Shown one piece after another: positions 12,887 to 36,882 of a stretch of 64,000 nt of DNA (position 1 is its first letter; the number at the start of each line of letters is the position of its first letter). A program made the position numbers and the translations under genes. The notes under the pieces were generated by a model. That model was not told where the DNA came from. It saw only the letters and a program-made list of their open reading frames with translations, and did not search any database. The stretch covers positions 24,212,001-24,276,000 of the forward strand of contig NC_134025.1 in the NCBI RefSeq assembly GCF_964204645.1, read 5' to 3'. This DNA comes from Tubulanus polymorphus. Its lineage: Eukaryota > Nemertea > Palaeonemertea > Tubulaniformes > Tubulanidae.

Positions 12887-12983
12887 ATGAGTCATCGGCA
12901 CAAGCCGAAGGACTCTGATGATCTGTACGTTAACCATAAATTGATTGGATCAGCGCCGCGCGGCACTGATCACACTGGTTCAG
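12887..12983 (+). CDS. BAD: BAD homologue, predicted coding exon 1
   Basis: Predicted N-terminal exon, residues 1-32 plus the first base of codon 33. The ATG has a good context (A at -3), and an in-frame TAA lies upstream at about 12834. The exon ends ...TCAG before gtaaac, a sound donor that leaves phase 1. Exon 2 starts with two bases of a split codon (CT), so the join gives GCT (Ala33). That phase match, and a total product of 163 residues against 168 in human BAD, are the main support. The residues (beginning MSHRHKPKDSDDLY) are hydrophilic and resemble no specific domain; the BAD N-terminus is poorly conserved even among vertebrates. A GCTGCTGCTGCGGCGGCGG stretch and CpGs lie in the presumed 5' UTR. 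An alternative is translation starting at the internal Met in exon 2 (16688), which would remove the first regulatory serine. Confidence 0.5.
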
Positions 12984-15217
12984 GTAAACGCGATAGGAAG
13001 AGAATATTGCCAGCCACGCGCCAGCTCACCGAGCGAGAGAGGCGGCAATCTTAAATCCCTTGATTTACTCTGCTCCTGATATCTGACTAATAAATAAACC
13101 TAACGTCTCACATGTGAGACATCATCGAAAGCCGCATATCCGCTGTTGGATAAGCTCGATGCGCAATTGTTTTTTTTTTTTTCTTAAAGCACGATTGGTG
13201 AGAATTATAGCGATGACTACTAATGAAGCTAATAAAAGACTGCAATGACAAGATGTCCTATACGCTATCCAACTTTATCTAAGTGATGGGATAATCAATT
13301 GATATTATGTTATTGATTAGTGAAAATTATAGCAGCAGAATGTGAAGTTGTGCAACTTTCGATTGATTTTGTATTGACTAATATCATCAAAAAATCATTA
13401 ACGCTATTAATATAGTCTTTATGAATTTTTGATATCATACATTGAAAAAAGAGTTAAAGAGAATAGACCTTATTAGGCAAGATGTTATGAAACCTGAAAC
13501 TCGGGGGGCTGTGATAAATGGACCATTTTTCTTATTCTGGATCTTAAAAATGGATCAGATAAATAAACATTACAAAGCCTTAGCCTATTCCGCTTGAAAT
13601 CTAGCTGCCGCAAATGGCTTACATGTCTGAAATGAGTTCCACAGTTGTGTACTTATTGACTGAAATATCCTAAATGAATTCCTAAACCATTGATCGAATG
13701 CCGGCAATACAGCTCTTCTTTATGATCTTACATCATACCTCTAAGTAGCGACCCTACCCTAAGCTCATAAAGCTGTTGCTTGTCCTTCCCAATTTATTTC
13801 AATTCAGGAGAGGATGGCACTCAAAAATTCAATTTGCCAATCAGAAATATTGAAAAAAGCTTCATAGAAATAACCTGCAAAATAAATCATTACTCGTTTA
13901 CAATAACACACTCTTTTACACGTTGCAGGGAATGGAAATCATTTAAACACAAAGGAAATTATGTTGGCCAGCATTAGAAATTATCTTCAATGTAAGATGA
14001 TATGTTTTACATGTGTAAATCAGTTCTTGATTTATGATTTGTGTTTTATTCATTCTCGGGGTCGTATGAAAACAATGTTTCAGTTCTATAAATTACCAGT
14101 TCGTGCGTAATTCAACCTCGAATGCTTAATTCCATCGCCGATACGGGAAGTGATAGGTCTGAAGGTTATGTTATTGAGACTGACGAGTTTGTCTGGCTTG
14201 CAACTGATAATGGCGAATCTATTTCGGGAAAATGACTGTTTTGTGGTTTTTGAAGTGACCTGTTTGCTACCCGCTGCGTAGGCTCGTCGAATGCCGACGT
14301 ATCATTGAAAATTTTCTGTTATTTCAGCTAGACCGAATGAAAATATGCCATTTCCTGTTTACTCTTATCTAATTTTGTGGTCATTTTTGATGTACGATTC
14401 TTGCATACGTTCAAATTTGCTCCATTTCCTTCTGCCTCGCGCGACGCTGTCTATTGTTTAAATGGCTCGAAATCATCGCTAGTCAAACTCGGTTTTAGAA
14501 TATTTTCTAGTGATTTCCTGGGCTTTTAAGTTATTTCCACTACGAACATTCTTCGGAAACGTTTTCATTCGATACTGTGTCCGGTAAAATGATTTGATTC
14601 GTCCGATTCAGCTAGGCAAACAACCGACTTGCTTCCTTTATTCATTGATCGATCATCTAACCTTGGATTTTGATATCTTTTACTGTAGGCCATATTTGAA
14701 CTTGCCATATACAAACAAGGATAGAACTCGAGTTAAATTGATGGATTTCTCTTTCAATGTTTATTCATTTACGCTACATGAATTGTCCGATCTTATGATT
14801 GATAAGCGGCATTAAACTAGATAAGTTGTTGCCAAAGTTTTTCAGTTCGAAGGCCAGCCGCTCTAAATGCCGAGTTTTATGATATGATCGTTATTCATGT
14901 TGAATATCCTGTTGTCCTTATCGTTTCTTTCTTATATCCATCTCAGAGGACCGATTTGGGGCACCTCGATTGACCATTCACGTCAAATGAGCCATCGGGG
15001 AATGATTCAGACTGGTTGCGTTCTGTTCTCGAATATAACTCTTGTTGCATATAAAATGACCATGTTTAGGCTGAATATGTATCGAAAGCTTTTCGTGTTT
15101 TGGGAATATTTCCTATGGTAATACGTATGCTTCCTCTGATGCATATAAATGATAAAAGATGAGTTTAGATGGACGCGCAGAATTTCATGCTTAACTCAAA
15201 AGATGAGCGCCTTATAG

Positions 15218-15542
15218 CCGCGATAGATGATATGGCCTGGGCCAAATTGGCACGGATCAGGCCCGAGTCAAATTTGGCCCGTGCCTAATTAGAGAGCGCA
15301 TTCACATGTAAACCACTCACTCCATACTAAACAATGCTTAAACTAAATGAAGTGAGTCACTTCCAGAACCAGTAACAATTCACATGCAATAATTTTAACC
15401 GTGCTTAAATTTGGCCCGGGCCTGGTCGGACATTTTTGGCCACTTAGGCACCCATGTGAACAGTTGTTCCAGCCCTAATTTGACCCGTCCTTTTTTAGTT
15501 GGGCCTAACAGGCATGGACCAGAATGTCTCGTGTGATTGCGG
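15218..15542. mobile_element. MITE family E, copy 1 (GGCCAAATTTGGCCC-rich)
   Basis: About 325 bp with inverse ends: ccgcgat...ggcctgggccaaattggc on the left, ...gtgtgattgcgg on the right. Internal blocks (gcacggatcaggcccgagtc, aatttggcccg, attcacatg, gaagtgagtcacttccagaa) recur at 27631-27970 in opposite orientation, and partly at 34101-34262 and 18881-18927. No coding capacity. Confidence 0.7.
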
Positions 15543-15854
15543 TTTATGTCAGATGGATCATTATTAGTTGGATACGAGACATTGTGGAATCATTTTCGAT
15601 TTACAAACGGTCAGATTAGCCGCTTGTTTAGCATAAATTCAATCATAGCCATTTCCACGTTCTGAGCTAAGTCAACAAATATGGCCGGCTTCATGTTTTA
15701 ACTGATTAATTCCGCTGATCAATGAGATTCATTCACGCTTCAATGGACTCAGCCTTGTGACAGTTTCCATATCCTACGATGATTAGATGATAAAGGTTTT
15801 TCATTAATGTTTTACTCATGCAGATGTCGAACTCTCGTAGTCCCTGTTCAGAGA

Positions 15855-15930
15855 GTCATTTTTTTGGAGAATAGTTTGGAGTTAATGAAGTAGTCATTTT
15901 TTTGGAGAATAGTTCGGAGTTAATGAAGTA
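15855..15930. repeat. 38-bp tandem duplication
   Basis: Two near-identical copies of gtcatttttttggagaatag followed by t(t/c)(t/c)ggagttaatgaagta, differing at one base. A recent local duplication in BAD intron 1. Confidence 0.9.
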
Positions 15931-35188: not shown

Positions 35189-35238
35189 ATATATATATAT
35201 ATATATATATATATATATATATATATATATATATATAT
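35189..35238. repeat. (AT)n microsatellite, about 50 bp
   Basis: An uninterrupted AT dinucleotide run in BAD intron 2. Confidence 0.98.
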
Positions 35239-36070
35239 GAACAAGAAAACTAAATTAATCTAAAACTAACTAGTTTATCGACGCTTTGAATAATAATGCC
35301 CATATTGGTTGAAATGAATAATGTGTATAGATTATATAGTATGAAGGATCAGGAAACTTATTTTGAATGTGAATATATATCGATAATTGAATTGAATTGA
35401 CCGGCAACCAGTCTAGCCCCCAATATATTGACGTAGTGCACATCCTCTCAAAAATAATTATTAGAATTTATCTAAAAAAATAAAATAAAAGTTATGAAAT
35501 ATATCTAATTACAAAACGCCAAAATTCAAAATTGTAATTGTTATTTTGAATTGCCAATTTTGATGATGTAGCTATCAATATATATAAGCATTATTGTTTA
35601 TATAAATCATTTTTTATTCAAAAATTGCTTATGTCGCTCAATCATAAACCTTTATGGCGAACTTGCCTAATTACCCGAGCAAGTGGGTCTGAACTAATGA
35701 CATCGTTTCTTTCAAACGTCCTTGATCGGCGCCGATTAGATTAATGAAACTTGATGAACATTCGGCCAGACGCGAAACGAGGCTTCGGAGAAATCAAATA
35801 AATTGAATATTTGATCGGGTGAAATAACGATGCATGAATCTGACTCATAAAACAATCGCGACGTTCCGATATTCTCGTCGGACACATGGCGTATGAAATT
35901 TGTTTTTCACGTCGGAGCGTTTGTTTTACTTTGCATCATTAAACTCGTTATCTGTAGTTAGGAGGTAGAATCCACGCGATTGATGCGTAATTAATGAGCG
36001 ATGAATAATGAATTTTTTTTTAAATCTTAGAACACGGGTTGACCCCGTTGTTTATTTCATTGGTAGTTTT

Positions 36071-36215
36071 CGTTTGATTTGTTTTGGTGTCCCTCTCCAC
36101 CGTGAGCGAAACAGGGTTTGAATTGGAAATTGGAAATCGAAATACATATATCGTTGTGTGATCGGCGGTCGCAGATTTACTTCTTTTTTTTTATCGAAGT
36201 ACATAATTGGAAATT
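36071..36215 (+). repeat. Dispersed repeat F, copy 2
   Basis: Same-orientation partner of 6890-7055 (ggtgtccct, gaaacagg, gaaatcgaaatacatatat, atcggcggtcg, cgaagtac in order). It lies about 490 bp upstream of BAD exon 3. The family is unidentified. Confidence 0.6.
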
Positions 36216-36702
36216 TCGGTTCTGGTTCATTCAAACAATCTTCCAACCAGCCTGAACCGGCAAGTGACTGGTTAGGGTCAGTAAATTCATTTTAGAAAAG
36301 TACACGGATGATATTAATTGACGTAAAATTCCAATTTTAGGTGCTTAACCTTTCGGATTGATGGGTTTCTGTGACGATTTATATCTTGGATCTTTCCGCA
36401 CTTTTTCAGGAAAGTTTTTTCGAGTTTCGCTGACAGGGTTTGTTGACAATCGTGGAAATCTCTGCAAATACTTTGGCTTATTCTGGCACTGGTAATAATG
36501 TTAGTATCTAACGAGTTGAGTTGGTTTAAGGGTAGTTAAGTAAACTGGTTACATCCAATTTTGAATCTAGAAAATCTCGGTTGTTAAATTGATATTGTAG
36601 CTGATAGGTGCTTCTTGTTGACTGTTTTGTTGTTTTCAAATTGTTTGAAAATATTTGTGGAATTCTTAAATATATTCAAATTTCTGTCTTCATGTTTTTC
36701 AG

Positions 36703-36882
36703 GGAAGTATTGCGGAGAACACACCTCCAGATGACAATCAATCTTCGTCGTATCCGGGCGCTCGACGCAACTGGATTCAAACGCTTTACCAGCGCATCGT
36801 GCGACCGACTCGCCGGCACTCGCAGTCCGACCTCGAACCGGGGCCGGTCTTACGCAAAAATCATTTCTGGCGCGAACAATAA
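36703..36882 (+). CDS. BAD: BAD homologue, exon 3: C-terminal helix and stop
   Basis: Residues 105-163 and a TAA stop. The exon follows the acceptor catgtttttcag and joins exon 2 in phase 0 (Leu104|Gly105). After a spacer (GSIAENTPPDDN) come QSSSYPGARRNWIQTLYQ and IVRPTRRHSQSD. Mammalian BAD has QSSSWTRVFQSWWDRNLG in the same position, within a C-terminal segment reported to bind membrane lipids. Here the QSSS, an aromatic residue after it, and the tryptophan-centred amphipathic helix are kept. RRHS144 is an additional RRxS (PKA-type) motif with no counterpart that I recall in mammals. The tail ends NHFWREQ. An in-frame stop, CpG-rich coding composition unlike the flanking intron, and a final length of 163 residues make this the terminal coding exon. 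Overlapping open frames on both strands here are shadows. Confidence 0.9.
   Translation, partial: GSIAENTPPDDNQSSSYPGARRNWIQTLYQRIVRPTRRHSQSDLEPGPVLRKNHFWREQ

Follow-up and report, generated by a model that had tools for sequence, protein, structure and literature searches.

BAD-type and BIM-type motifs in one BH3-only gene of the nemertean Tubulanus polymorphus

The closest described counterparts of the gene treated here are the vertebrate BH3-only proteins BAD (PF10514), BIM/BCL2L11 (PF08945) and BMF (PF15185). The gene, annotated as uncharacterized protein LOC141915267, lies partly within a stretch of 64,000 nucleotides from T. polymorphus (NC_134025.1, positions 24,212,001 to 24,276,000; below, the window, with window positions counted from its first letter and all window features of the gene on the + strand) and partly upstream of it. 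In vertebrate BAD, the motifs RxRxxS and RSRSxP precede a BH3 of the type LRRxSDEF; the fish sequences compared carry all three within a single open frame. For BIM and BMF, the LC8 (dynein-binding) motif is given as DKSTQT and EDKATQTL, respectively (PMC4695108, PMC3078936); the beta-TrCP degron of BIM is placed at Ser93/94/98 (PMC4695108), and LC8 is described as an inhibitor of the killing activity of BIM (PMC12017986).

BH3-only proteins were stated to be unidentified in bivalves in 2013 (PMC3634015), and in molluscs in 2017 (PMC5550854) and again in 2022 (PMC8917759, which names BAD). Potential BH3-only proteins were found in 2022 with human Bim, Bad and Bmf as seeds (PMC8998228); the accessible part of that paper includes lophotrochozoans, echinoderms, hemichordates and amphioxus among the species in the legend of its Figure 5, names a coelacanth protein as the earliest Bad homologue, leaves its candidates unassigned to BAD, and contains no description of phospho-sites or of an LC8 motif. 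Its 118-residue sea-cucumber protein probably corresponds to row P0021 of our protein set (Apostichopus japonicus, 118 residues; same length, same animal), which carries the Pfam BAD domain and the motif RANSAP, neither being remarked on in that part of the text, and its candidate list implies that single family members are probably known already as BH3 motifs. Within the literature surveyed, of which the coverage was partial, no invertebrate gene named BAD and no BIM-BAD composite was found; what appears to be new is the BAD assignment, together with the phospho-site motifs and the LC8 motif that accompanies them.

The Tubulanus gene is best read as a BAD homologue, yet as more than BAD alone, namely as a gene of the ancestral type from which BAD and BIM parted. 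We consider it probable that the locus is a BH3-only gene of a bilaterian family co-orthologous to vertebrate BAD and BIM, possibly also to BMF, and the comparison suggests that BAD and BIM descend from one ancestral gene predating the split of the main animal branches.

The phospho-site and BH3 exon

Coding exon B (16644..16858), the second of three exons proposed in an earlier sequence-only reading of the window, begins in phase 1 and finishes in phase 0; it is recovered as an own-genome match at C1:24228643-24228864 of the T. polymorphus assembly, C1 being the contig on which the window lies. It encodes two basophilic phospho-site motifs and a BH3. The first motif, RRPRHHS (16655..16675), is of the RxRxxS type, occupies the position of the first BAD regulatory serine and aligns with ERRPRFxSE of fish BAD; we take its serine to correspond to human BAD Ser75 (mouse Ser112). 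The second, RSRSEP (16736..16753), is a putative 14-3-3 mode-1 type motif whose serine presumably corresponds to human Ser99 (mouse Ser136). The BH3 core WGRQLRRISDEF (16793..16828) follows at the BAD-like spacing that the sequence-only reading had pointed out, its tryptophan lying 16 residues past the second serine of RSRS, and includes an RRxS serine which we assume to match human Ser118 (mouse Ser155). Candidates for all three BAD regulatory-serine motifs, RxRxxS, RSRSxP and RRxS within the BH3, are present in the same order as in vertebrate BAD. The segment LRRISD fits the pattern L-x(3)-[GS]-D, and the Pfam matches of the product do not include a Bcl-2 domain (PF00452), as expected of a BH3-only protein.

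Coding exon C (36703..36882, stop codon included), exon 3 of the sequence-only reading, supplies the C-terminal helix region QSSSYPGARRNWIQTLYQRI (36739..36798), which resembles SASFPGARGTWLDNLCEFI of Lineus and GSFPGTWRFGGFWDSLRQLF of Mytilus. The C-terminal aromatic helix feature ascribed to this exon is found in the sequence, and a short helix is predicted there with low confidence. An AlphaFold prediction for the NCBI protein (P0001 of our set) has a helix at residues 62-92, with a mean predicted local distance difference test score (pLDDT) above 90 over the stretch 61-80 that holds the BH3, a low-confidence helix at 112-122 and low confidence in the remainder (mean pLDDT 63.2). An additional basophilic motif, RRHSQSD (36811..36831), lies near the C-terminus; a C-terminal basophilic serine motif also recurs in some invertebrate relatives, as RPRAHSD in Lineus (P0056) and RQRSYSE in P0033 and P0046.

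Exons B and C together encode 131 residues that are identical to those of P0001, so that the 16858|36703 junction also stands in the public gene model, and the same identity and join mark the host of the window as a protostome, a possibility that the sequence-only reading had considered: T. polymorphus is a nemertean, a member of Protostomia, Spiralia and Lophotrochozoa.

Along the phospho-site/BH3 exon, the product of exons B and C is, judged by its sequence, a homologue of vertebrate BAD. On their own, the two exons match Pfam BAD with E 7.2e-5 and 23.7 bits, below the curated cut-off of 28.2. In a first search, three weak matches beyond T. polymorphus itself were obtained at E up to 1 (E 0.05-0.23), all three carrying the Pfam BAD domain and fish-like by our judgement. 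The homology extends beyond the BH3 because a profile of 12 invertebrate rows aligned by hhalign with six vertebrate BAD rows at 98.8% probability (E 9.3e-17) over 58 columns, which take in ERRPR..S, RDRSRSEP and GRELRRISDEFH.SY. The vertebrate rows consisted of one whale sequence by name and five judged fish-like; the invertebrate rows were chosen by hand, with four near-duplicates and two long rows lacking TQT (see below) left out. Compared with BH3 peptides, the short Tubulanus product found a BAD peptide as its sole match (13.3 bits, E 0.65).

The upstream exon and its relatives

The sequence-only reading had placed the first exon at 12887..12983 (+ strand), and GT-AG borders and one continuous spliced frame are found for all three of its exons. 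With exon 1 added, the match to Pfam BAD rose to 31.0 bits from 23.7; nine shuffles of the exon gave 24.3-35.4 bits, one of the nine lying above the real exon, so that passing the cut-off gives no support to exon 1. The first 17 residues of P0001 are absent from the window, and the first coding exon of the NCBI model maps to C1:24194502-24194553, ≈ 17.5 kb upstream of the window, in a frame that is found in Lineus as well. After the shuffling and this mapping, the exon at 12887..12983 was set aside as unsupported; an alternative first exon may lie there.

The frame at the NCBI first exon is open for 277 codons from C1:24193746, with an upstream ATG at 24193863, and the splice donor after C1:24194553 joins exon B in the correct phase. 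Coding exon A is placed upstream of the window at C1:24193863-24194553, its start codon being inferred, with a long product of 361 residues; by arithmetic, the coding exons then span ≈ 55 kb from this ATG, with introns of 34.1 and 19.8 kb. The NCBI model of 148 residues starts at the inner ATG at C1:24194502 and omits 213 residues of open frame (24193863-24194501), among them the TQT and DSGY motifs, which indicates that the public gene model may be incomplete. In Lineus longissimus, LOC135485624 covers 94% of the long Tubulanus product in alignment, with 34% identity, and both species have KRDSGYLTDSPAS, STQTP and a like-placed start, supporting the upstream exon as protein-coding.

It is this exon that sets the Tubulanus gene apart from vertebrate BAD: the gene has an added upstream exon with an LC8-type TQT and a DSGY stretch, whereas the partial whale BAD row (P0044) is without TQT and most fish BAD rows start too late to tell. 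The putative LC8-type motif HVSTQTPR lies upstream of the BH3, as TQT does in BIM, and the LC8 motif is likewise shared with BMF. The segment KRDSGYLTDSPA fits the degron pattern DSGxxT, and DSGY(L/H)T stretches of the Tubulanus type may resemble the beta-TrCP degron of BIM.

Conservation was followed in a set of 65 rows, comprising all proteins found with a BH3 match and the Tubulanus product; vertebrate BADs and near-duplicates were included, and the short NCBI Tubulanus form and one row lacking the BH3 pattern were excluded. An RSxSxP-like motif (loose pattern, at most 45 residues upstream of the BH3) occurs in 59 of the 65 rows, and the serine within the BH3 (LRRxSD) in 62. RxRxxS[DE], which lies farther upstream and was counted apart from the second site, is present in 49; the 16 rows missing it include the truncated P0049, P0051 and P0053 and variants, among them whale BAD. 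Since BAD-type sites are found in nemerteans, molluscs, a sea cucumber, acorn worms and amphioxus, the motifs are, as sequence, older than the protostome-deuterostome split. To this extent the sequence-only reading was borne out: homology to BAD holds along the phospho-site/BH3 exon, and the sites predate that split, whereas an identity as BAD in the narrow sense is not supported, the upstream exon having BIM-type motifs.

Longer relatives were sought with a profile of the 361-residue product and 13 relatives, a fish BAD row among them, which returned 27 matches at E up to 10. All 13 new matches (Lineus, Mytilus edulis and two mussel-like proteins, Batillaria, Nucella, one gastropod-like protein, Ptychodera, Glandiceps and four Branchiostoma) have an LC8-type TQT upstream of the phospho-site exon; as three query rows contained TQT, the search may favour matches that bear it. 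In a comparison of 18 long rows, Tubulanus and the 158-residue P0031 included, 16 carry TQT, the BH3 and the region of BAD-like sites in a single chain (two of these with altered BAD-like sites), the chance of a TQT per long row being 0.6-15% by shuffling. Further upstream, Tubulanus and Lineus share KRDSGY(L/H)T with three rows of mussel type and with two of the three of gastropod type.

The exon borders were read by comparing read-through open reading frames with longer models, the introns being deduced from protein letters. From the start of exon B to the RxRxxS serine the distance is 10 residues in Pomacea, in one mussel-type pair and in two pairs of gastropod type; Tubulanus has a split codon at this very place, and the stretch shared in amphioxus, which begins 9 residues ahead of the serine, fits a split codon at 10. 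The end of exon B lies 9-15 residues past the BH3 in four readable pairs and 10 residues past it in Tubulanus. In the Gigantopelta/P0015 and Apostichopus pairs, a clear exon border was not seen.

For vertebrate BIM and BMF, the comparison drew on peptides, models and sequence fragments. In a search of the PDB with a 14-row family BH3 profile, the best scores were 28.5 bits for BIM, 26.3 for BAD, 17.0 for PUMA and 16.5 for BMF. Acorn-worm P0060 exceeds both Pfam cut-offs, with 45.4 bits for the BIM-type model PF08945 and 29.7 for BAD; P0064, which also carries RNRSHSEP, reaches 46.7 and 21.0 bits, and 17 of its 18 PDB matches are BIM peptides. Together with P0062 and P0063 (27.4 and 27.0 bits with the BIM-type model, 21.8 and 23.7 with BAD), four of the ten long relatives scanned pass the 25-bit cut-off of PF08945, while Tubulanus stays below it at 13.4-15.2 bits. 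The sequence-only reading had named best reciprocal matches to BIM as evidence against BAD, and the outcome is divided: the family BH3 profile places BIM above BAD and the acorn-worm rows fit BIM peptides and the BIM-type model best, whereas Tubulanus alone scores BAD higher. This divided result points to a shared ancestor of BAD and BIM.

Acorn-worm DVRPEIEVGRELRRISDEF resembles a BIM-derived PDB peptide, and acorn-worm RSHSEPADVRPEIEVGRELRRISDEF, set beside a segment of human BIM, offers a lead that the two may be the live and the dead version of one 14-3-3 site. Genes of the Tubulanus type differ from BIM by two BAD-type motifs between TQT and BH3, and the BH3 of BIM has glycine where that of Tubulanus has serine. 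As for BMF, two of the ten relatives scanned gave weak matches to its Pfam model, at 16.9 and 12.0 bits against a cut-off of 27, and the Tubulanus product gave none.

Possible origin, mechanism and rival explanations

If the Tubulanus gene were a plain one-to-one orthologue of BAD, then BAD itself would already have existed in the bilaterian ancestor, and the upstream TQT would be an old extra that vertebrate BAD lost and that implies no kinship to BIM. This is favoured by the Pfam scores of Tubulanus (23.8 bits for BAD, 15.2 for the BIM-type model), by the BAD domain in its only non-self matches at E up to 1 (three weak ones, E 0.05-0.23), and by the hhalign result with vertebrate BADs (E 9.3e-17). 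Against it stand the acorn-worm and amphioxus rows P0060, P0064, P0062 and P0063, all scoring higher with the BIM-type model than with BAD, the TQT upstream of the BH3 in a single chain as in BIM and BMF, and the outcome of searches, weak for short motifs, that found no second BIM-like gene in the assembly; we hold plain orthology to be unlikely. Convergence, by which a disordered death regulator would have gained 14-3-3 sites, LC8 motifs and a BH3 independently and would resemble BAD without descent, can draw on the fact that every motif is short, that TQT may arise by chance in up to 15% for one long row, and that BH3 motifs turn up repeatedly in unrelated proteins. It appears very improbable to us in view of the agreement in order and flanking residues (ERRPR..S, RDRSRSEP and GRELRRISDEFH.SY, hhalign E 9.3e-17) and of the 5' border of exon B, which agrees across the readable pairs. 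It might also be that only the short form of 148 residues is produced, translation beginning at the inner ATG (C1:24194502), with the LC8 and degron parts untranslated or on another transcript. The NCBI protein does start at this ATG, and Pomacea, too, has a short NCBI isoform (P0040); however, the reading frame upstream stays open over 277 codons, Lineus conserves it at the protein level with a start in a similar position, and both halves are joined in public models of Mytilus, Branchiostoma, Ptychodera and Glandiceps as well as in single-contig proteins, which makes production of the short form alone distinctly unlikely.

Several observations weigh against co-orthology to BAD and BIM. The start of the NCBI model at the inner ATG implies that the long form may be rare, and the Pomacea isoform X2 (P0040) has its own short first exon without TQT. 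Exon A alone matched no Pfam model, those of BIM and BMF included, so that its likeness to BIM rests on short motifs, among them a DSGY..T stretch that may resemble the BIM degron. With Pfam BAD, the NCBI model (23.8 bits) and the long product (21.9 bits) stay below the cut-off of 28.2, which is reached solely with the doubtful exon 1 (31.0 bits). P0018 lacks the first site, and the second is altered in Lineus (RTRSES, without the proline) and Nucella (RAHTCP). The long rows P0033 and P0046 are without TQT, as are five more rows of at least 199 residues outside the 18-row count (P0016, P0026, P0042, P0043 and P0044); P0026, P0042 and P0043 look like genomic read-through open reading frames that run into the intron before exon B and lack the upstream exon. 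The distance from TQT to BH3 amounts to 77-119 residues, in one model to 161, and we take it to be shorter in BIM. The 14-row profile used against the PDB held one fish BAD row and also matched an unrelated phage chain (E 0.002). A tree of exon B from 19 hand-picked rows had two of 16 inner branches well supported and was mostly unresolved, and because of this poor support it was not used for relationships.

The co-orthologous family can be extended to a more specific history, towards which we lean slightly: the bilaterian ancestor would have had one master BH3-only gene under a beta-TrCP degron, an LC8 anchor and a kinase/14-3-3 switch, with BIM, BAD and perhaps BMF as its daughters, and the segment just ahead of the BH3 in BIM would be what is left of a defunct 14-3-3 site (compare acorn-worm RSHSEPADVRPEI). 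From the sequence, its conservation, the partial gene structure and the matches to partner domains we infer how binding, phosphorylation and death activity might be arranged and how the genes might have duplicated. Exon A provides the DSGYLT stretch, similar to the BIM beta-TrCP degron, and STQTP, a motif of the type associated with the dynein light chain LC8. The BAD-type motifs RxRxxS and RSRSEP come from exon B, as does the BH3 with its RRxS serine, and the C-terminal aromatic helix region comes from exon C. Under survival signals, basophilic kinases would phosphorylate the serines and a 14-3-3 dimer would keep the protein cytosolic, the BH3 serine acting as a further lock in that a phosphorylated BH3 would be unable to bind. 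An LC8 dimer might pair or tether the protein, and the degron would keep its amount low. With the kinases silent, or with LC8 binding disrupted by stress phosphorylation, the BH3 helix would enter the groove of a pro-survival Bcl-2 protein, and Bax/Bak would be freed. The vertebrate copies would then have split these controls: the 14-3-3 switch would have stayed with BAD, the LC8 anchor with BIM and BMF, and the degron with BIM.

With relatives in molluscs, nemerteans, a sea cucumber, acorn worms and amphioxus, a gap among BH3-only proteins would close, and the BAD-type switch motifs would date to before the protostome-deuterostome split. The origin of BAD and BIM would become open to test as the partition of a single gene's controls; should a master gene have existed, the textbook separation of growth-factor survival (BAD) from cytoskeletal stress (BIM) as inputs would reflect a division of labour particular to vertebrates. 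For research on stress and transmissible cancer in oysters and mussels, the family would offer a candidate upstream trigger.

Partner genes and other features

The T. polymorphus assembly contains 12 matches to the Bcl-2 domain, ten of them over the curated cut-off (two of these ten with an in-frame stop), and those over the cut-off may include targets of the BH3 protein. All 13 matches to 14-3-3 are over the cut-off; four 14-3-3 C-terminal half exons lie within ≈ 15 kb at C2:21559823-21574900, as tandem genes or alternative exons. A second BIM-like gene was not found in the assembly, in searches that are weak for short motifs. The sole other PF08945 match besides the LOC141915267 locus, at C4:7083626, was rejected, its frame being without the BH3 aspartate. 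The gastropod-like paralogue P0034, used as a query, gave a C7 match with stops, the LOC141915267 locus and a weaker C2 match with stops, of which the C7 frames alone were read; no candidate was retained from it.

Gastropods have a second kind of BH3-only protein, represented by P0034 itself and P0030 (Batillaria); its sequence, SRSYSDTD..YHL.KEVGRELRRISDEFHF.YKGR, is without the RSxSxP proline. P0028 and P0039 (DRCKSAPDIRSSE) look like a third kind.

In the window, the gene scan covered ten hand-picked open reading frames of 75, for which Pfam gave a single sub-threshold match; at gathering scores, Rfam gave no match. The tandem repeats of the window comprise an AT microsatellite at 47344-47578 (118 copies), a pure GA run at 10386-10464 (39.5 copies) and a 90-bp repeat at 631-863 (2.5 copies).

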